Part shown: positions 9,107-35,480 of the stretch, piece after piece
How positions within the stretch are numbered: position 1 is the stretch's first letter
Layout of the letters: each line of letters starts with the position of its first letter
Virus record (IMG/VR): IMGVR_UViG_3300032213_002237
Location: 20,200 to 84,199 of that record
Source of the DNA: a virus
Length of the DNA: 64,000 bases
Strand: one strand, 5' to 3'
Program-made: the position numbers and the translations under genes
Notes under the pieces: generated by a model
The model's input: only the letters and a program-made list of their open reading frames with translations
What the model was told of the DNA's origin: nothing
Databases searched by the model: none

Positions 9107-9194
9107 AACTTTTTTTTTAATGATAAATAATTTTGAATTACATTTGTAGTTGAATTTAAGAACAAATTCATTTAATTTTAATAAAAACTATTTT

Positions 9195-11258
9195 ATGACA
9201 GATTCAGTTGAAGAAGGTGGGAAACTACCAAAAAAAACAGAGGTTAATTCAAGTACACCTGTTTTAGACAATTTTAGTCGTGACCTTATTAAACTTGCCG
9301 AAGAAGGTAAGTTAGACCCCGTTGTCGGTAGGGAAGACGAAATATTACGTATTGCTCAAATTCTTTCAAGAAGAAAGAAAAACAACCCAATTATCATCGG
9401 TGAACCTGGTTGTGGTAAGACGGCAATTGTTGAGGGATTGGCGATGAAGATTTTTGAAGGTGATTGTCCAAGAAACTTGGTTGACAAACGTATTCTTTCA
9501 TTAGAAATGAATTCAGTTGTTGCAGGAACAAAGTATCGTGGTCAATTTGAAGAGCGATTAAAGGTTATCTTGGAAGAAATTCAAGCAAACCCAAATGTTA
9601 TTCTATTCATTGATGAAATCCATACCATTGTCGGAGCGGGTAACGCCTCAGGTTCCATGGACGCATCCAACATCTTAAAACCAGCATTATCGAGAGGTGA
9701 AATACAGTGTATTGGAGCTACTACATTGGATGAGTATAAAAAACAAATTGAAAAAGACGGAGCGTTGGATAGACGTTTCCAAAAAGTAATTGTTAGTTCA
9801 TCAACAAAAGAAGAAACATTACAAATCCTTAAAAATGTTAAAGACAGATATGAAAATTATCACAAGGTAAACTATACCGATAGTATTCTACAAATCTGTG
9901 TTGATTTAGCTGAACGATATATTACGGACAGAGAGTTTCCTGACAAGGCATTTGATATTTTGGATGAAGTCGGAGCAAGAGCTCAGGTAGATGTGAAAAA
10001 TCCTGAAATAATTGACGAATTAAAACGTCAAGCGTTAGAGATTAAACAACAAAAATTACTTGTTGTTAAAAAACAGAATTACGAAGAAGCTGCAAACTTA
10101 AGAGATAAAGAAAAAAAAGTTTTATCACAACTTGATATTGAAAAGAAGAAGTTTGAACAAACTTTATTAGATAATAGAAAAACAATTTCTGAAGAATTGG
10201 TTTACGAGGTGGTGTCAACAATGACAAAAATACCTTTAACAAAACTTAATTTAGATGATAAGATTGCTCTTATTAATTTAGAAGAAGAATTAAATAAATC
10301 GGTTATCGGACAAAAAGAAGCGGTTACAAAGATTGCGAAATCTATTCGTAGAAATAGATTAGGTATCAAAGACCCAAATAAACCAATTGGTTCATTCATA
10401 TTCTTAGGTTCAACAGGTGTTGGTAAGACGTTATTAGCAAAAGAATTGGCAAAACAAATTTTTGGTAGTGATGAAAATCTTATCCGAGTTGATATGTCTG
10501 AATACCAAGATAAACATACCGTATCTCGTTTAATTGGTTCACCTCCAGGTTATGTAGGGTATGACGAAGGTGGACAACTTACAGAACAGGTAAAGACCAA
10601 GCCATACTCTGTGGTATTATTTGACGAGGTTGAGAAAGCCCACAAAGACATATTCTCAGCATTACTTCAACTATTGGATGAAGGTTATATGACGGATAGT
10701 TTTGGAAGAAAAATCAATTTCAAAAACTGTCTAATCATTATGACATCAAATCTTGGGGTGAAAAAGATGCAAGAATTTGGAGCAGGTGTTGGATTTAGTA
10801 AGAATGGTAATGTTTACGCTAATGAAGAACTTAAGAAAACAATGTTAAACAAAGAATTGAAGAACCACTTCGCACCTGAGTTTATCAATCGTTTGGATGA
10901 GGTAATTGTATTCAACACACTTCAAAATGACGATATTCAAAAGATTGTTTTGGTTGAGATTAACAAATTGAAATTTCGTTTGTCAAAATTGGGATACAAC
11001 ATTAACTTCGGTCAGTCAGTAATTGACTTTGTTTCAAAAGTTGGATTTGATGATGTTTACGGAGCACGTCCTTTGAAAAGAGCGATTCAAGAAAAGATTG
11101 AAGACTATATTTCAGATGAAGTATTACGTGAAAAAATTGTAATGGATAAGTCCTACAATATTGAAATCAATGATGAAGAAGTGTCAATATCAGAAGTTGA
11201 AGCCCAACCTGATGAAACACCAAAAGTGAAAAGACCAAGAAAGAAAAAGGGGGAATAA
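9195..11258 (+). CDS. clpC-like: ClpC/ClpA-type AAA+ unfoldase
   Basis: About 687 aa, started at ATG 9195; an upstream TTG in frame at 9150 is less likely. Two AAA+ modules are intact. D1 has GEPGCGKTA and VILFIDEIHTI. D2 has GSTGVGKTLLAKE and VVLFDEVEKAH, followed by FINRLDE sensor sequences. Between them is a short UVR-like segment (YEEAANLRDKEKKV), as in ClpC rather than the long ClpB middle domain. The double N-terminal Clp repeat is missing. In D2 the loop GAGVGFSKNG carries the VGF tripeptide that ClpC/ClpA/ClpX proteins use to dock on ClpP. No ClpP gene is in the window, so it may use the host peptidase. A C-terminal basic tail (KVKRPRKKKGE) is unusual. Neighbours are a peptidase and a tmRNA. 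Confidence 0.92.
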   Translation: MTDSVEEGGKLPKKTEVNSSTPVLDNFSRDLIKLAEEGKLDPVVGREDEILRIAQILSRRKKNNPIIIGEPGCGKTAIVEGLAMKIFEGDCPRNLVDKRILSLEMNSVVAGTKYRGQFEERLKVILEEIQANPNVILFIDEIHTIVGAGNASGSMDASNILKPALSRGEIQCIGATTLDEYKKQIEKDGALDRRFQKVIVSSSTKEETLQILKNVKDRYENYHKVNYTDSILQICVDLAERYITDREFPDKAFDILDEVGARAQVDVKNPEIIDELKRQALEIKQQKLLVVKKQNYEEAANLRDKEKKVLSQLDIEKKKFEQTLLDNRKTISEELVYEVVSTMTKIPLTKLNLDDKIALINLEEELNKSVIGQKEAVTKIAKSIRRNRLGIKDPNKPIGSFIFLGSTGVGKTLLAKELAKQIFGSDENLIRVDMSEYQDKHTVSRLIGSPPGYVGYDEGGQLTEQVKTKPYSVVLFDEVEKAHKDIFSALLQLLDEGYMTDSFGRKINFKNCLIIMTSNLGVKKMQEFGAGVGFSKNGNVYANEELKKTMLNKELKNHFAPEFINRLDEVIVFNTLQNDDIQKIVLVEINKLKFRLSKLGYNINFGQSVIDFVSKVGFDDVYGARPLKRAIQEKIEDYISDEVLREKIVMDKSYNIEINDEEVSISEVEAQPDETPKVKRPRKKKGE

Positions 11259-11276: not shown

Positions 11277-12095
11277 TTAAAAATTAAAAACTTGTGAACT
11301 GTGTATAAATTGGTATTTCTGTTTACCGAGTTCTTCAATTAATTTTTTACCTGTATTCATGCCGGCAAAAACTTCATGAACAACAACATATTCGTTTGGT
11401 GTGTGATAGTTGTGATATCCGATTGAAAAGTTGATACAAGAGAAGTCAAACTTTTTACGAAGTTGCCAAACATCAGTGTAAGGGTGTTGCATATATTTTG
11501 GTTCAGACAACATACCTTCAGAAAGAACTTTTTTGGCCTTTGACTCAAATTCAGAATCCGTTTCAAAAACTTTGACTCCATAACAATATTCTGTCACCAT
11601 GTAATCGTGAGGTGCGTCAAATTGAATTGCATAACCCACATTACTAAAGAAGTCCCTGTCAGCTTCTTTTGAACCCAAACAACCAACTTCTTCAGATACA
11701 AACAAAGCAACTTTAATTACTTCAAAAACTTCCAATAACTGAAGACAGGCAAACACCCCACACTTATCATCACCACCAATACCTGTTGGGTCACCAAAGT
11801 CGTTATACGCCTTAAGTGATAAACTTAAATTACCTTTTGAGTCTTTAAGTTGTTCTTCATGGATATTGATTGTGTCAATTTTATGTACCGTATCAGTATG
11901 GGCAACAATACAAGGATAAAATTCACCCTCGTTTATTTCACCCTTTGTCACATAGACATTTCCAAAGTCATCAACTTTAAAATTGTGTTTTTTTTCGGTT
12001 AAATATTCAACCAAAAATTCAATCATTAAATCTTCTTTAAATGATTTTGTAGGTATTGACAATACCTTTTTTAAGAAATCAACATTTTCTATCAT
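11277..12095 (-). CDS. M20/PepT-like zinc peptidase
   Basis: 272 aa. The metal-binding pattern of M20/M28 co-catalytic peptidases is visible in order: AHTDTVH (His and the following Asp), GIGGDDKCGV (bridging Asp), SEEVGCLGS (catalytic Glu pair), FDAPHDY (Asp) and SIGYHNYHTPNE near the end. It is shorter than cellular tripeptidase PepT (about 400 aa) and has no clear lid domain. Such enzymes trim short peptides. It converges on the Clp gene and lies 1.2 kb from the tmRNA, so it could recycle products of tagged-protein degradation. TTATCTTTATGAGCTATG upstream suggests a host-type promoter with almost no leader. Confidence 0.85.
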   Translation of the reverse strand: MIENVDFLKKVLSIPTKSFKEDLMIEFLVEYLTEKKHNFKVDDFGNVYVTKGEINEGEFYPCIVAHTDTVHKIDTINIHEEQLKDSKGNLSLSLKAYNDFGDPTGIGGDDKCGVFACLQLLEVFEVIKVALFVSEEVGCLGSKEADRDFFSNVGYAIQFDAPHDYMVTEYCYGVKVFETDSEFESKAKKVLSEGMLSEPKYMQHPYTDVWQLRKKFDFSCINFSIGYHNYHTPNEYVVVHEVFAGMNTGKKLIEELGKQKYQFIHSSQVFNF

Positions 12096-12122: not shown

Positions 12123-13202
12123 TTAAAACAATTCAGGATGATATAAAAAATTTAAAAAAGTATCATAATCAATTTTAACGGTTTGGTTAAATTCATTTTT
12201 ACTATGATTACTATATGTAATAAGTATTTTTCCGTCATCAACATCTCGAATTATGAATTTGTTTGGTGTCTTTTCCCCAAATGTTTTTTGTGAAGGAAAT
12301 TCATACCATTTATTAAATTCACCATACTTTAACTTTGATAATTTTTCAAGTACTTCAGAGTTTTTACGATAAGAATCAATATTATCACTATCTTCAATTT
12401 TTTCCATGATTTTATCAAGATTCCAAGTTACACTTCTGTTAAAACTTTCATCATCATAATTTTGACTATCAAAATAAGCATAATAATCTTCATATAAATC
12501 TTCATCAAACTGTATTCCCAATTGGTCAATACTTGTTTTTAACATATCTGAAAGTTTAGCGTCTTTGTCTTCACCAGATTTATCCCAAGTATTTAAAAGA
12601 ATTGATACAGTTGTCATGTAGAGATTAGTACATTTTTTCTCAAAGATATTTAAAGGAAGTAAAGCGTTACATAATTTAGATGTAACATATTGTCTTAATC
12701 CTTTAACGAGTGCTTCATCATATTCACTTGAATAATCGTAAATAATACTATCTATCTCATTTGAAAAATCATTTTTTAACCACTTACAAATTTCAATAAT
12801 TTTATCGTTATGTTCTGTTAAATTTTCTACTGAAAGACTAGGTCGTAATATTTTTACTATTTGTTTGACCCTATCTAAATTCTCATTATTGAAATAATGT
12901 AGTAAATAACCCTCATCCCAATCATAATCCATGGAATAATCATCAACAAAAACATTACCTCCATAATATCCACCTTGAAAAGCAACTCTAATTAAATAAC
13001 CGTTATTAGTTTCATCATTATTTCTAGTAAAAAGGTCAACATAATCCTCAGTATCAAATGTTAAATAAACCAAAGACTTACCAAGATTTTTTTCATTTAT
13101 TCTTGTAATACGTAAAATATCTTCATCGTCTTCGTACCTAACAAAATTTGCGGTAACTAAATCTTCCGTAAAATCTTTTAATGCCTGATAAAGTTGACTC
13201 AT
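12123..13202 (-). CDS. Hypothetical protein, 359 aa
   Basis: An acidic, soluble-looking protein with alternating helices and strands. There is no membrane segment or recognised catalytic motif. The first 60 residues read ALKDFTEDLVTANFVRYEDD, and the C-terminus forms a small beta domain (FIIRDVDDGKILITYSN). GTATTTATT lies about 20 nt before the ATG. Its place between the peptidase and tmRNA genes gives no firm hint of function. Confidence 0.7.
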   Translation of the reverse strand: MSQLYQALKDFTEDLVTANFVRYEDDEDILRITRINEKNLGKSLVYLTFDTEDYVDLFTRNNDETNNGYLIRVAFQGGYYGGNVFVDDYSMDYDWDEGYLLHYFNNENLDRVKQIVKILRPSLSVENLTEHNDKIIEICKWLKNDFSNEIDSIIYDYSSEYDEALVKGLRQYVTSKLCNALLPLNIFEKKCTNLYMTTVSILLNTWDKSGEDKDAKLSDMLKTSIDQLGIQFDEDLYEDYYAYFDSQNYDDESFNRSVTWNLDKIMEKIEDSDNIDSYRKNSEVLEKLSKLKYGEFNKWYEFPSQKTFGEKTPNKFIIRDVDDGKILITYSNHSKNEFNQTVKIDYDTFLNFLYHPELF

Positions 13203-13223: not shown

Positions 13224-13255
13224 CTTGGTAAAAGAAGAATATATTTATATCTTTG
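13224..13255 (+). promoter_or_regulatory. Host-type promoter for the tmRNA
   Basis: The -7 element TATCTTTG (13248-13255) with a TTG-type -33 (13225-13227) about 20 nt upstream. The mature RNA starts about 22 nt after the -7 box, so a short 5' leader would be trimmed. Confidence 0.6.
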
Positions 13256-13277: not shown

Positions 13278-13672
13278 GGGGATGTTTTTGGATTTGACAG
13301 GTATGAATCTGTCATAAAACGCACGTCGGGGCTAAACTAACCCTGTAAAACTGGTTTAAAACACAAACGGCAACACAATTGCAAAACTTTCTACACTCGG
13401 TTTAATCCGTACTGAAGAAGTAACTGTAGCCTAATCTAAGATTAGTATACAACGGGGTCGGTGAGCATATAACCTTGCAACAGAAGCTTGTACTGTGGTG
13501 TGGTTTCTATCCGAAAAGGAACAAAGTGGAGGATTAGTTCTCAGTAAACCGAACCACTATAAAATAAGGGAATTGTGAAGTTTCGGATTGTTTAGAAAAA
13601 CAATGACCTAAACGTGTAGTGTTTTATGGTCGACATATTTGGACCGGGGTTCGAGCCCCCGCATCTCCACCA
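13278..13672 (+). ncRNA. ssrA: tmRNA (ribosome rescue RNA) with an unusual tag
   Basis: 395 nt. The 5' end GGGGATG pairs with CATCTCC before an encoded ACCA at 13672. GGATTTGACAGG after the acceptor strand and GGGTTCGAGCCCC in the T arm are tmRNA hallmarks. An open frame from the GGC at 13369 to the TAA at 13432 would encode a 21-residue tag starting GNTIAKLSTL and ending EEVTVA. A Gly resume codon is usual in Bacteroidetes, whose cellular tags are much shorter and end in ALAA. The stop codon lies within a short hairpin (CTAATCT/AGATTAG), and the region after it should form the pseudoknots. Placement of the resume codon is my reading of the flanking sequence. Confidence 0.93.
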
Positions 13673-13675
13673 ATT

Positions 13676-13706
13676 AAAAAGGGACTGAAAAGTCCCTTTT
13701 TTTATT
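13676..13706. terminator. Bidirectional terminator between tmRNA and the lysin gene
   Basis: AAAAAGGGACT-GAAA-AGTCCCTTTTTTT hairpin, which ends both the plus-strand tmRNA and the convergent minus-strand gene. Confidence 0.85.
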
Positions 13707-15309
13707 TAATCATTTTTGATTTAATATTTTCAATATCTTCTAAAATATTTTTTTTCTTTTCTTCCGATTCAAATTGAGGTAACAAATCACCAATTTTATC
13801 CAATATGTCATCAACACTATATCCAAAAATTTCAAATCCGTCATTAGTATCTTTAACGTCTTTTTTATTTTCAACTTTTGAAACTAATTCTTTTTGACTT
13901 TCTTTATCGCCGGCTTTAGCTCCAGTAAGACTTCCTAACCCAACAGAATCTAAAAATGAATCTAATTTACTTGGTTTCTTTTCATTTTTTACAACTTCAA
14001 AAGTTGACGGTTCCCCACTTGGGTCAGAAAAATCAGGTGTTAATAAATCATCAATGTGTTTACCATATGGTAAACCTACGTGAACATGAGTTGATTTACT
14101 TTCACCCCATTCTGAAACTTTACCTATAGGTGTTCCGATATCAACAATATCACCCTTTTTAACTGTAACATCTTTTAAGTGAGTGTAAAAAATATTAGGA
14201 TACCCATCAGTTCCCTCAATTGAAACTTGTGTTCCATATATTTTACCTGAACTTTTTCCCGTATTGTAAACCTTTGTAACAGTTCCTTTAGTTATTGAAT
14301 TCCACTGAGTTCCAGCTGGTGCAAACAAATCCCACGCATTGTCAGATTGCCAATTACCTAACGGTCTAGAACCGTGGTATTTTGGACCATTTTCAATATC
14401 TCCTGAAAAATTATCTAAAACTTTTGAATTTTTTTCAAAAATGTATTTCATTTTTTTTAATTCATTAATAACTTCTTCATTTAATTTTTTCTTATCTTTA
14501 TTTCCATAAGATTCAAATTGTGGTAATATATCACCAATTTTATCTATTATATCATCAACTTTATATCCAAAAATTTCAAATCCATCATCAGTATCTTTAA
14601 CATCTGTTTTATCTTGAACTTTTGAAACTAATTCTTTTTGACTTTCTTTATCACCGGCCTTAGCACCTGTAAGACTTCCTAATCCAATAGAATCTAAGAA
14701 TTTTTCTAATTTAGAAGGTTCTTGTGTTGTTTGTGACGACTCAATTTTTTCAAAATCAATATCTTCTAAATTATCTAAGTTTTTTAAAGACGAACAAAAT
14801 TGAGATGTTCCCCCACCTTCATCTGTTTTATTATCAGAATAAGATAAATGGTAATGAACTCCTGTTGAAAATCTACTTGGTCTTCTATATTCATCAATGA
14901 ATGTAAAACCAGGATATTTTTTTCTTAACGCACATAATAAAGTAGATATTTTATCAAGTTCATCATTATCACCTTTTTCAATCCCTTTGAATACAACATC
15001 AATTGCGTTACCTTTGTTGTGTCGGCTATTTGGGTATTGTTTATGGAATAAATCTCTACCTGAACCAAACTTTATTTTTAAATCAGGTAATTTTTGTTTA
15101 AACGCGCTCGCAACATCTTTTAAAGTATCACCAAATTCAGGAGTTAAATCACCAACTTCCGCCATTGTTCTTTTAGTTTCATATCCTAAACTCTCCAAGT
15201 GATTTTTAACACTTGTTGCAACTGGACGAGCACTTGATTCTTCTTCAAATATATTTTCTAACTTACGTAGTTCTTTTAACGATTGTTCGTGTAATTGTTT
15301 TTTATTCAT
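13702..15309 (-). CDS. Two-headed peptidoglycan peptidase (M15 + M23) with a duplicated linker
   Basis: 535 aa. After a leader-like start (MNKKQLHEQSLKELRKLEN, then IFEEE-S), residues about 75-160 match M15/VanY-type LD- or DD-peptidases (SRHNKGNAIDVVF and GVHYHLSY give the zinc ligands). Residues about 310-430 match an M23/LytM fold (YTHLKDVTVKKGDIVDIGTPIG, then THVHVGLP). The usual first zinc His of M23 is Asn in SDNAWDLFAP, so activity of that half is uncertain. Each domain is followed by a nearly identical 70-residue segment (LDS.GLGSLTGAKAGDKESQ to DILPQFES). Leader plus two lytic domains suggests a virion-associated lysin. Divergent from the next gene across a palindromic late promoter. 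Confidence 0.85.
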   Translation of the reverse strand: MNKKQLHEQSLKELRKLENIFEEESSARPVATSVKNHLESLGYETKRTMAEVGDLTPEFGDTLKDVASAFKQKLPDLKIKFGSGRDLFHKQYPNSRHNKGNAIDVVFKGIEKGDNDELDKISTLLCALRKKYPGFTFIDEYRRPSRFSTGVHYHLSYSDNKTDEGGGTSQFCSSLKNLDNLEDIDFEKIESSQTTQEPSKLEKFLDSIGLGSLTGAKAGDKESQKELVSKVQDKTDVKDTDDGFEIFGYKVDDIIDKIGDILPQFESYGNKDKKKLNEEVINELKKMKYIFEKNSKVLDNFSGDIENGPKYHGSRPLGNWQSDNAWDLFAPAGTQWNSITKGTVTKVYNTGKSSGKIYGTQVSIEGTDGYPNIFYTHLKDVTVKKGDIVDIGTPIGKVSEWGESKSTHVHVGLPYGKHIDDLLTPDFSDPSGEPSTFEVVKNEKKPSKLDSFLDSVGLGSLTGAKAGDKESQKELVSKVENKKDVKDTNDGFEIFGYSVDDILDKIGDLLPQFESEEKKKNILEDIENIKSKMIK

Positions 15310-15321
15310 TATAAAAATGGT

Positions 15322-15335
15322 ATATTTATAAATAT
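15322..15335. promoter_or_regulatory. Palindromic bidirectional late-promoter-like element
   Basis: ATATTTATAAATAT is a perfect 14-bp palindrome placed between two divergent start codons. Each strand presents TATTTATA to its own gene. Confidence 0.6.
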
Positions 15336-15336
15336 T

Positions 15337-16104
15337 ATGGAAAACAATAAATTAATTAGAATAGCTCAAAAGTTATCTTTATCTATTAAAGATACAAATG
15401 TTACACAAATATCAAGAAAATTAAATGACCGTAAAGGACCGTATCAACAAATGATGTCCGTGTTAGAAGGATGGGATTTTGTTAAATTGGTATTTTTAAT
15501 CAATGCCATTAATAATGGTGAAAAAGAATTTGAATCAATATTATGGAAAGTTGATAATGAAAGATTTACCTATGCAATTGCCACTGTATTTGATGATGAA
15601 GTTCAGGAAAGCTGTGATTACTGTGGTGGTGATGGTGAGATTAGTTGTAGTGAATGTGATAGTTCAGGTGAAATAGATTGTGATGAATGTGGGGGTGAAG
15701 GTGAAGACGACGAAGGTGAAACATGTTCAAATTGTGATGGTCGTGGTAGACTTGATTGTGATTCCTGTGGGGGTAGTGGTCATGAAGATTGTTATGACTG
15801 TGGTGGTACAGGTGAACAACAAAAAAGCGACGCTTACGAATTAAAATTAGACTTTTATTTTAGTATTAATGAAGAATTAAAATCAGAACTTAGTAAACTT
15901 AACAGATATGACAAAATTGACTCTGACACAATCACAGATTATGAAGATACAAATGAAACTATATTAGTATACGCACTACCGATGGCTATAGAAGTTGAGA
16001 CAAATGAAGAATTAGAATATAATACCGAATATTTTTATGAAATAGATACAGCAGGATGGGTTGGTAATAGAGCTAGTAACCCAAACTTTGATTTAGATTA
16101 TTAA
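15337..16104 (+). CDS. Protein with a DnaJ-type CxxCxGxG zinc-finger domain
   Basis: 255 aa from ATG 15337 (MENNKLIRIAQKLSLSIKDT); an in-frame upstream start would lie inside the promoter palindrome. Residues about 95-165 hold repeated CxxC pairs of the DnaJ central domain (CDYCGGDGE, CDECGGEGE, CSNCDGRGR, CDSCGGSGH, CYDCGGTGE), enough for two or more zinc sites. There is no J domain. The acidic flanks and a following beta-rich domain ending WVGNRASNPNFDL are unassigned. A client-binding or redox role is possible; phage proteins with this domain alone are poorly known. Confidence 0.75.
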   Translation: MENNKLIRIAQKLSLSIKDTNVTQISRKLNDRKGPYQQMMSVLEGWDFVKLVFLINAINNGEKEFESILWKVDNERFTYAIATVFDDEVQESCDYCGGDGEISCSECDSSGEIDCDECGGEGEDDEGETCSNCDGRGRLDCDSCGGSGHEDCYDCGGTGEQQKSDAYELKLDFYFSINEELKSELSKLNRYDKIDSDTITDYEDTNETILVYALPMAIEVETNEELEYNTEYFYEIDTAGWVGNRASNPNFDLDY

Positions 16105-19703: not shown

Positions 19704-21107
19704 TTAATCTTCTTTAAATGTTTTAGTTGTTGTGTCATAAGTATAATCTTTTCCGTTTGCTTTCCAATAACCACTCACGTCAGTATCATTTGTCGCGTCG
19801 TCAATACTTAAACTATTAGCTGTTAGGAATTTTTTGAAATCTTCAAGTGTTTGAGTATATTCTTTTTTACCACCTTCTGCAGGTTTGGTACCACCAATTT
19901 CTTCAACTGTCTTATTTGCAAGTTTTGGGTCAATACACGTAATTTTAACATTCTCACCTAAATTATTTTTCTTTTCAAGGTAAAATTCACCTTCTTTTTC
20001 AATTACAGTTTCTAATTGACCATCATAAACTACTTTAGGATAGTACTTATCTACGTATTCATCTGAACCTAAAGCCTTCACATGGCTATCAGTTATCTTT
20101 TTATCACAAGAACTAATTAACCTTTTCAAAATATCCTGAGCTTCTTCAATATCTACCTGATATAACTCAAATCCAACAAATGTTCCACCTATTAACCCAA
20201 GAGAGACTATAGCTAGAGCAATTTTTACAGGTTTTGTAAGTGGGGGCATCTTAGGTAAGTATTCTTTAAATGCATCATATTGAGCCTTGAATTCCGCTCT
20301 TCTAATACCCTTTAACTTATTTGCGGCTTCCTGTATTTGAGTTTGAGAATCTGCTAATTTTTTCTGTAATTGTTCAAGTGTGACATTTGGATTGTCTGAA
20401 ATAAATTGTTTTGCTCTCGACTCTAAAACATCTGGTTTTACCTTAATTGTTTTAGAAATTGTTTGAATTTCTTTTTTTATTCCTTCACTCAAATTTCCAG
20501 TTTCATCCAACATACCTTTTAATGCATTTGTTAGATTCTTAACATTTGATTCAATTTGGGATTTTGCCCTATAATAATTATTATAAAGTCTATAACCTAG
20601 TTCATCTTGGATTCCCGTACTTTCACCGGATTTAAGTATTGTATCAAGACTTTCACCGTATGTATTATCAGCCGATTTTAAATCGTTTGCCTTTACTGAT
20701 GAAGAAAACAAATCATCTGAAGATAACTCATCCGCCATTTTTTTCAAGCTTGGGTTTGTATTTACTACTGCCGCCGCCATTTTTCCCCTTATCTCTCTAT
20801 TACTAGATTTAACAAGTTTTTCAGCAATATCGTTAACCAAATCATCTGATAATTTACCAGCTCTAATATCTGTAATTATATCATCAAAAGTTTTACCTCC
20901 AGATTGAGCAATTTCATCAAAACTATTTCTAAGTGATTCCGCAACATCGTCAACCCCATCTTTAACCAAATCTTCAAAATCATCGACACTTTTACCAAAA
21001 AGAGTTAAAAATTCATCAATAACACCACCACCAACGGATTCTTTTAAAAGAGGTAATCCTAAAATTTCTCTAAAACGATTAATTTCGTATAAAATTTCTT
21101 TTTCCAT
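19704..21107 (-). CDS. Large helical protein with one membrane segment
   Basis: 467 aa. A leader-like start (MEKEILYEINRFREILGLPL, then LLKES) is followed by long helices. One strong membrane helix lies at about 295-318 (VKIALAIVSLGLIGGTFVGF). The C-terminal part is acidic and ends in a small beta segment (SGYWKANGKDYTYDTTT). TATTTATT stands before the ATG. The size, coiled coil and single membrane span would suit a protein delivered with the DNA or a tape-measure-like part. No family recognised. Confidence 0.7.
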   Translation of the reverse strand: MEKEILYEINRFREILGLPLLKESVGGGVIDEFLTLFGKSVDDFEDLVKDGVDDVAESLRNSFDEIAQSGGKTFDDIITDIRAGKLSDDLVNDIAEKLVKSSNREIRGKMAAAVVNTNPSLKKMADELSSDDLFSSSVKANDLKSADNTYGESLDTILKSGESTGIQDELGYRLYNNYYRAKSQIESNVKNLTNALKGMLDETGNLSEGIKKEIQTISKTIKVKPDVLESRAKQFISDNPNVTLEQLQKKLADSQTQIQEAANKLKGIRRAEFKAQYDAFKEYLPKMPPLTKPVKIALAIVSLGLIGGTFVGFELYQVDIEEAQDILKRLISSCDKKITDSHVKALGSDEYVDKYYPKVVYDGQLETVIEKEGEFYLEKKNNLGENVKITCIDPKLANKTVEEIGGTKPAEGGKKEYTQTLEDFKKFLTANSLSIDDATNDTDVSGYWKANGKDYTYDTTTKTFKED

Positions 21108-33689: not shown

Positions 33690-35480
33690 TTAAGAATAAA
33701 TTCCTTGACTATAAATTTTCCATTCTTTTTTTCGTCTGTCTTCGTATGGAAAATCAATAAAATGTTGTTCAACATTTCGTAAATTATTTGGATTATTTTT
33801 TAACGCTGCTGATAAATTTGGAGCTTCTTTTGTACAACCATCAAATCCCATTTGATAACATAATGAACACATCGCGTCTAATTGTTGTTGACTTAAGTTT
33901 GGGTATAAATTAAGTATTTTTTTTGCGTTTTTGTTTAATGTGTTTTTCATTAATTCTTTTGCCTTTGTTTCGGTAATATCAGGGTCATTAGGTTTAACAG
34001 GTATTCCACCAGGATAATACGTTGTACCATAACCTATTGTTGCCTTTGCTCCGGGAGTTGGGGATTTTCCTCTTAAACAACAATCAGGTTCTTTTCTCAC
34101 ACATTTACCACCTTTAGCGTCGTCATAAACACACTTAACAAAAAACTCAATATTCGCTACAAAATTTACAAGTTTATCTGAAACTGTTCCGACCCCAACT
34201 GTATTTGAATTTGATGACTTTTCTTTTGCAATTTTTGCAATTTTTTTAGCACCAGCTTTAACTGCATCAACAGCACCTCCTGAATTTGGTGTCATTTGGT
34301 CTTTTGATGGTGCCATAGAAGACCATGTATTCATTAAATTTGATTCTTCTTTTTTATCATCAGAACCAAAATATTTGTTATAGAAATCCATAGTCGATGT
34401 TTGCTCATTAATATTTGGTCTTAAAACCGTCATAGCCTCAGGGAAGTCTTTGTTTAAAACATCCTCATCCTTATTTGTGTAAGGAATGTTTTGTAAAACG
34501 TATCTAATTGAGTTTAGACCTGAAATCTTTTTATCGTTAGAATCCAAAACAACCCACGGATGATTCACTGTAGATGTCTTATCAAAAAGTTTTTGTTTAT
34601 ATTCTGTAAACTTTTCCCACACATCTTGCATCTTCTCATCATTCTCAGAATACTTCCAATATTTCAATGGTGACTTCTGTCTGAAATCAAATCTCTTAGC
34701 TTGAGTTTCTTTATCTATTGAGAACCAAAGTTTAAATAAGTAATCCCCATCAACAACCAATGATTCTTCAAAATCCTGAACATTATCCATAAAGTCTTCG
34801 TACTCTTCTGACGAACCATAACCCATTACAGGTTCAACTAATCCTCTATTGTACCAACTTCTATCAAAGAAGTTTATCTTACCTTTTTCAATTTGATTAC
34901 TGTATCTATCCCACCAGTTCTTTCTTTCATCAGGTGTTGGGATACCAAGAGCAATAACTTTATAATATCTTGGATTTAAATTTTCAGTGAATTTCTTAAT
35001 TGTAGAACCTTTACCTGCCGAGTCTCTTCCTTCAAAAACAATTATAACAGTTTTACCTGTTTGTTTTAACCATTCCTGTAACTTTAAAAGTTCAACCTGT
35101 AGAAAAAATATTTCTTTTTTATAAATGTCTTTATCTAAAATTGATGGTTCTTCTTCAGGATTAACAACTTCTTTTTTATTTTTTCTTTTTTCTAATGATT
35201 TAGTTAGTTGTTTGAAAAATTCAAAAACATTAATATCTTTGTTACCTTTTAACTTTAAAGTTTTTAAAACACCTCTTGTTATTAATCCAAAATCAACCAA
35301 ACCGTCTTTTGAGTAATCATCAATTTTATTAATAAATTTTTGAATTTGAGCACTATACACTTTATTATCTTTTAAAACTGAAACAAGATATTTTATTTCA
35401 GGGCTATATTTTGGCTTATCGGCCTCTTGTAAACCCATCATGTTTTTCATCTTACTAACTTCAGTCAATAAATTCCTCAT
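33690..35480 (-). CDS. Fusion of polyphosphate kinase 2 (PPK2) and a T4-type lysozyme domain
   Basis: 596 aa. The leader MRNLLTEVSKMKNMMGLQEA fits the packaged-protein pattern (LQE-A). Residues about 115-345 are a PPK2 domain: Walker A FEGRDSAGKGSTIKKF (about 149-164), Walker B/lid FFDRSWYNRGLVEPVMGY (about 204-221) and WKYSENDEKMQDVWEKFTEY. PPK2 enzymes move phosphate between polyphosphate and nucleotides. Residues about 345-440 are a linker. Residues about 440-596 resemble GH24 lysozymes (IEFFVKCVYDD with the likely catalytic Glu, KATIGYGTTYYPGG, LSQQQLDAMCSLCYQMGF). Both halves look intact. TATTTATC lies at the ATG, so a late, virion-packaged enzyme is likely. Confidence 0.85.
   Translation of the reverse strand: MRNLLTEVSKMKNMMGLQEADKPKYSPEIKYLVSVLKDNKVYSAQIQKFINKIDDYSKDGLVDFGLITRGVLKTLKLKGNKDINVFEFFKQLTKSLEKRKNKKEVVNPEEEPSILDKDIYKKEIFFLQVELLKLQEWLKQTGKTVIIVFEGRDSAGKGSTIKKFTENLNPRYYKVIALGIPTPDERKNWWDRYSNQIEKGKINFFDRSWYNRGLVEPVMGYGSSEEYEDFMDNVQDFEESLVVDGDYLFKLWFSIDKETQAKRFDFRQKSPLKYWKYSENDEKMQDVWEKFTEYKQKLFDKTSTVNHPWVVLDSNDKKISGLNSIRYVLQNIPYTNKDEDVLNKDFPEAMTVLRPNINEQTSTMDFYNKYFGSDDKKEESNLMNTWSSMAPSKDQMTPNSGGAVDAVKAGAKKIAKIAKEKSSNSNTVGVGTVSDKLVNFVANIEFFVKCVYDDAKGGKCVRKEPDCCLRGKSPTPGAKATIGYGTTYYPGGIPVKPNDPDITETKAKELMKNTLNKNAKKILNLYPNLSQQQLDAMCSLCYQMGFDGCTKEAPNLSAALKNNPNNLRNVEQHFIDFPYEDRRKKEWKIYSQGIYS

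Follow-up and report, generated by a model that had tools for sequence, protein, structure and literature searches.

Phage tmRNAs have been described before (PMC4131195, PMC7162821), and so have long phage tags. The deposited genome of the Bxz1-type mycobacteriophage ET08 (GQ303260), a type whose tmRNA gene was already on record by 2014 (PMC4131195), carries a one-piece tmRNA whose tag, ATDTDATVTDAEIEAFFAEEAAALV, counts 25 residues and does not end in AA. ET08 and its tag are unrelated to those described here, its host belongs to another phylum, and it has no ClpC-like gene. The precedent for a switch of protease that goes with a long tag is bacterial: in Mesoplasma florum (Mollicutes), the tmRNA encodes a long, divergent tag that is read by Lon and not by ClpXP (PMC9382460). 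That tag ends in NYAFA, its reader is Lon instead of ClpC, and M. florum lacks ClpXP, whereas the host of the phage studied here would be expected to have it. Clp proteins have been noted in phages resembling ours, i.e., a Clp protease in freshwater phages encoding the ribosomal protein bS21 (PMC9723584) and a core ClpA-like ATPase with a putative peptidase in moraphages (PMC12619734); a term search of these two papers returned no mention of tmRNA or tag. As far as the literature that we found shows, the novelty of the present locus is a conserved family of 21–22-residue tags that is strictly linked with a ClpC lacking its N-terminal domain.

The phage and its tmRNA gene

We analysed a stretch of 64,000 nt (the window), which covers positions 20,200 to 84,199 of the IMG/VR record IMGVR_UViG_3300032213_002237. 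The GC content of the phage is 31%, and related records reach 295 kb. The gene for bS21 (PF01165) is present in 11/11 records tested and lies in the terminase region, about 5 kb from TerL in one of them (G000). The complete genomes of freshwater bS21 phages, whose predicted hosts are Bacteroidetes, measure 293–331 kb and have GC contents of 31.0–33.7% (PMC9723584). By gene content, size and GC, used here in place of a tree, the phage fits the bS21-encoding jumbo phages of Bacteroidota, which supports the Bacteroidota-type host assumed in the initial annotation.

A single tmRNA was detected by ARAGORN (Table 1), and the Rfam model RF00023 matches exactly the same bases over its full length (1–374), with 133.2 bits (E=7e-52) for a gathering threshold of 47 bits. 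The phage tmRNA reported here from the letters alone is thus confirmed as real. Its acceptor stem, read from the sequence as GGGGAUG/CAUCUCC, has the G3-U70 pair that specifies alanine and is followed by an encoded CCA, so charging with Ala is expected. Pseudoknot 1 (PK1) precedes the resume codon, as in other tmRNAs. Among 16 distinct sequences of related phages, 99% of the cells of PK1 are paired and 35 are changed on both sides; this level of pairing was reached in 0/500 shuffles, and slid versions of the stems pair in only 21–51% of cells. The gene is flanked by a promoter of the Bacteroidota type and an intrinsic terminator. The window holds 12 copies of a stricter promoter pattern, TTTG-N17-20-TANNTTTG, where 3.8 are expected (0/100 shuffles). 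A nucleotide search of deposited phages gave only tRNA-like matches of 31–35 bp.

Table 1. Features of the tmRNA locus, with positions in the window.
Feature	Position	Strand	Evidence or details
AAA+ unfoldase of the ClpC type, maximum length 702 aa (ATG near residue 16)	9150..11258	+	Walker A/B in both rings; best solved relative 6em9
Putative M20/M42-like metallopeptidase (phrog_4191), between ClpC and tmRNA	11277..12095	-	weak matches to PepT/dipeptidase families
359-aa protein, no assigned function, adjoins tmRNA	12123..13202	-	conserved in most relatives
Bacteroidota-type promoter TTG-N20-TATCTTTG, upstream of tmRNA	13225..13255	+	
tmRNA (ssrA) gene, CCA encoded	13278..13672	+	ARAGORN, RF00023, sequence
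Pseudoknot 1 (PK1)	13327..13358	+	stem 1 13327-31/13341-45; stem 2 13333-39/13352-58
Tag reading frame, GNTIAKLSTLGLIRTEEVTVA	13369..13434	+	resume codon GGC 13369, stop TAA 13432-13434
Intrinsic terminator, downstream of tmRNA	13676..13703	+	-14.9 kcal/mol, z -4.45, then U run

The 3' part of the gene varies among relatives. Group I introns (RF00028, 71–102 bits) split the T-loop in several of them (L114, L115, L117/L010 and L118), as is already known from bacterial tmRNA (PMC11915505); the copy in the window is free of such an intron. In four others (L135, L137, L411 and L119), the T-arm at the 3' end reads GGGGAGUCGGAGCCCC or similar; the UUCGA loop usually found there is missing, which may mean an altered T-loop. 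One sub-lineage (L135, L137, L138, L139, L141 and L142) encodes the giant GOLLD RNA (RF02032) on the strand opposite to the tmRNA and about 150–180 bp downstream from it; in L140, the two are about 3 kb apart.

The resume codon and the tag frame

The covariance-model alignment places the resume codon at GGC-AAC, 10 nt after PK1, a distance close to the approximately 11 nt of Escherichia coli (PMC2481249). The frame is open, ends in a stop codon and has an A at position -4 of the resume codon, as found in tmRNAs. It encodes 21 residues, to which the charged Ala is added, and ends in EEVTVA. The tag length and the frame proposed from the sequence are thereby borne out, and the model did not lead to a standard tag. 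ARAGORN itself called a shorter tag of 17 residues, AKLSTLGLIRTEEVTVA, starting at GCA 13381. We rejected this start because the codon is absent from the relatives, where AAC, TCT or GAC stands in its place, whereas GGC with the A at -4 is kept. In all 16 distinct sequences, the codon after GGC or GGA encodes Asn or Asp and an A stands at -4, with a pyrimidine at -5 in nearly all; the equivalent of the -4 base in E. coli, A86, is the key determinant (PMC2481249). In two relatives without the GCA, ARAGORN calls the form of 21–22 residues. Both starts are in the same frame, which makes the C-terminus EEVTVA certain.

Conservation of the tag

Viral contigs were searched by pattern and by terminase, and whole records with Rfam, which yielded the 16 distinct tag coding sequences, all from related jumbo phages. 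Every one of them encodes 21–22 residues that start with GN or GD and end in VA (e.g., GNVINKLSTIGLIRTEEVSVA, GNVINKLSAVGLVRTEETVEVA, GNVLDKMATIGLIRENASVVA, GNVLNKMEAVGLIRTSEVAVA and GDVFANMETLGLLKGSEVAVA), and the final Ala is invariant (16/16). The conserved parts (GN..., K[LM], GL) span the whole length of the tag and not its end alone.

The tag sits within a structured RNA, and its conservation could in principle be a by-product of the structure. The codon pattern led us to reject this explanation, which we find hardly credible: the pooled pN/pS is 0.51 in the tag frame but 1.08 and 1.75 in the other two frames, a pattern reached in 0/200 permutations of the columns, and differences are most frequent at third codon positions and least at second ones (means of 0.36, 0.15 and 0.49 at positions 1, 2 and 3). 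The 16 sequences are related, and these figures thus describe a pattern and do not count independent events. The covariation of PK1 and the contrast in pN/pS between frames exclude chance; the tag frame is under purifying selection, and the tag is kept as a peptide.

The same evidence bears on the idea that the tmRNA serves mainly to compete or to sense, i.e., to titrate host SmpB or to report stalled ribosomes, with a tag of little importance. Such roles have precedents, since a tag-less tRNA-like domain of phage DS6A inhibits the host tmRNA and phage tmRNA has been suggested to sense lysis (PMC4131195, PMC7162821). The full structure is nevertheless kept here and the tag frame is under purifying selection, which makes this explanation very improbable.

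We also searched for an origin of the tag in a phage protein; the ORFs that supply 554 distinct C-termini of the phage clade contained no motif match. Among these C-termini, in an exploratory count on a redundant set, terminal Ala is rarer than expected (7 versus 24.5), and Lys-Lys ends are commoner (18 versus 5.7), perhaps as part of a general trend.

Tags of the hosts and of other phages

The chromosomal tmRNAs of Bacteroidota belong to the same RNA family as that of the phage, and many of their tags likewise start with Gly. We collected 73 of them from Bacteroidota genomes. Their tags have 8–12 residues and nearly all end in AA (e.g., GENNYALAA and DNNYSYRLAA), in broad agreement with the roughly nine residues and ALAA end given for the hosts in the initial annotation. 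With 21 residues and a VTVA end, against about 9 residues and [LM]AA in the hosts, the phage tag falls outside the host tags in both length and end.

Long or unusual tags are found in other phages as well. Bacillus phage G has a tag of 13 residues, AKLNITNNELQVA, that ends in QVA. Together with ET08 and two further records (G356 and G357), it has a long or non-AA tag and no ClpC of the type described below. Viral contigs gave 55 distinct tags, 22 of which have at least 15 residues, although some are cyanobacteria-like or dubious permuted calls. Unrelated viral tmRNAs (L134, L340/L493) encode another family of long tags (ANVELSTWTFEDAMAFVGGDLALAA and GNVELSEMTFEDAIEFVNEYDMAA). The tmRNA of the huge phage LR756508 (484 kb; L482) seems to encode a tag of 36 residues, GVNNADYESAGFTAEDFAQMDGESLYHGSERKPAAV; ARAGORN calls another, short frame there.

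The difference between phage and host tags could mean that the tag is not degradative: it would take the place of the host tag and be read poorly by host proteases, and rescued phage proteins would then survive, or the ribosomes would simply be recycled. The C-terminus is indeed unlike the AA end of the hosts, and the phage supplies a tmRNA to a host that already possesses one. This explanation is nonetheless improbable, since the invariant terminal Ala and the VA end would be needless, truncated proteins are of little use, and ends of the LVA type get degraded (PMC11003136).

The initial annotation had suggested that the -VA end may mean an escape from the usual ClpX/ClpA signal. As stated, this is not supported by published work on ssrA variants: those ending in LVA are the fastest degraded in E. 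coli and Salmonella (PMC11003136), and changes of the penultimate or last Ala raise the KM of ClpXP and leave Vmax nearly the same (PMC7652416). An end in -VA alone does not block ClpXP, which may well recognise it as a signal. The tag could serve ordinary trans-translation, with its ...VA-COOH end read by host ClpXP or ClpAP, its long part acting as a reach or adaptor segment, and the neighbouring ClpC unrelated to it (devoted, e.g., to chaperoning or host takeover). The rapid decay of LVA variants, the help that a longer stretch ahead of the end gives to ClpXP (PMC8512704), the invariance of the final Ala and the existence of long-tag phages without ClpC all favour this explanation. It accounts less well for the conservation of the entire tag, for the departure from 73/73 sampled Bacteroidota tags and for the persistent linkage with the ClpC described next; we regard it as a serious possibility that falls short of being probable.

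The neighbouring ClpC-like unfoldase

The unfoldase encoded upstream of the tmRNA has two AAA+ rings with Walker A and B kept in both. Its best solved relative is ClpC of Staphylococcus aureus (6em9), and it resembles this protein and that of Bacillus subtilis in having both rings and a [VI]GF motif at the site of the ClpP loop. The docking loop reads GVGF in the window, and GVGF or GIGF in 12/12 aligned phage copies. Its alignment with the S. aureus protein starts only at residue 156 of the latter, and no match to the Clp_N domain was found in the phage protein, which indicates that, in contrast to the two bacterial ClpC, it lacks the N-terminal domain that binds adaptors. Those of its matches in Bacteroidales genomes that we aligned are ClpB-like in appearance.

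In 25/25 records that have this tag and reach that far, ClpC and the tmRNA share a strand, with the ClpC gene 1.9–4.3 kb upstream; these records are related to one another and many are near-identical. The identity of ClpC among syntenic relatives is 65–98%, and the gene order ClpC-peptidase-(359 aa)-tmRNA, with the putative M20/M42-like peptidase in a conserved position, is kept in the relatives that cover the stretch; the 359-aa protein was not found in the type of G020/G026/G029. Some relatives, including G014, G022 and G030, had neither tmRNA nor ClpC and may be fragments. A ClpP with the catalytic Ser, His and Asp in place was found in two related records (G027 and G029). The initial annotation had supposed that the phage has Clp machinery of its own, which agrees with the syntenic ClpC and with these two ClpP; tagging for that machinery is plausible and rests on the linkage. 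The loci of this phage ClpP are 1501-2028 of L144 (a record of 295 kb) and L143; in G029, about 18 kb separate it from the tmRNA. SmpB was not found in any of the 16 phage records searched, including those of 241, 242 and 295 kb, and host SmpB is thus presumed to serve.

We dropped one argument for pairing tag with ClpC, namely that phages with -AA tags lack ClpC, because such a ClpC is also missing from ET08 and phage G, whose tags do not end in AA, and because the ClpC of LR756508 is about 360 kb away from its tmRNA.

Two other genes of the window deserve mention. A protein with the CXXCXGXG zinc repeats of the DnaJ type is encoded near the tmRNA (15295-16104, + strand), also in close relatives. 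Further away, an ORF of 596 aa (33690-35480, - strand) gave two family matches, one to an endolysin family at the C-terminus and one to a kinase-like family in the middle, a part that by eye has the look of a polyphosphate kinase 2 domain.

A possible degron for the phage unfoldase

We propose that the tmRNA is a working one and that its tag is a degron specialised for the linked phage ClpC acting with ClpP, a proposal that we hold to be about as likely to be right as wrong. Host SmpB would load the phage tmRNA and host AlaRS would charge it with Ala. Ribosomes that stall during infection would be rescued by it, with A-GNTIAKLSTLGLIRTEEVTVA added to the product. The phage ClpC-like unfoldase, whose gene lies 2 kb upstream, would recognise this tag as a degron and pass the protein on for degradation by docking on ClpP, either that of the host or, in some relatives, that of the phage. 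Since most relatives have no ClpP, it is the host ClpP that would have to dock in them. The M20/M42-like peptidase encoded next to ClpC may complete the breakdown of the peptides. Several points speak against a degron for ClpC: the synteny may reflect the common descent of one genome backbone and not function, long or non-AA phage tags exist without such a ClpC, and an end in -VA could still serve as a signal for ClpXP. A stronger form of the proposal, in which a degron of 22 residues is read only by the N-domain-less phage ClpC on ClpP, forming an orthogonal viral pathway apart from host ClpXP and kept across a lineage of Bacteroidota jumbo phages, is rather unlikely.

These results touch on the question of why large phages bring their own tmRNA. 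That a tag of this length persists through much divergence, always beside a phage unfoldase, suggests, though it does not prove, that the phage marks faulty proteins for disposal by a system of its own, and it reduces the question to a simple test of which protease reads the tag (with the reporter GFP-AGNTIAKLSTLGLIRTEEVTVA). If the pairing of tag and ClpC is real, it would constitute a degron system made by a virus, as well as a potential tool for orthogonal degradation in Bacteroidota.
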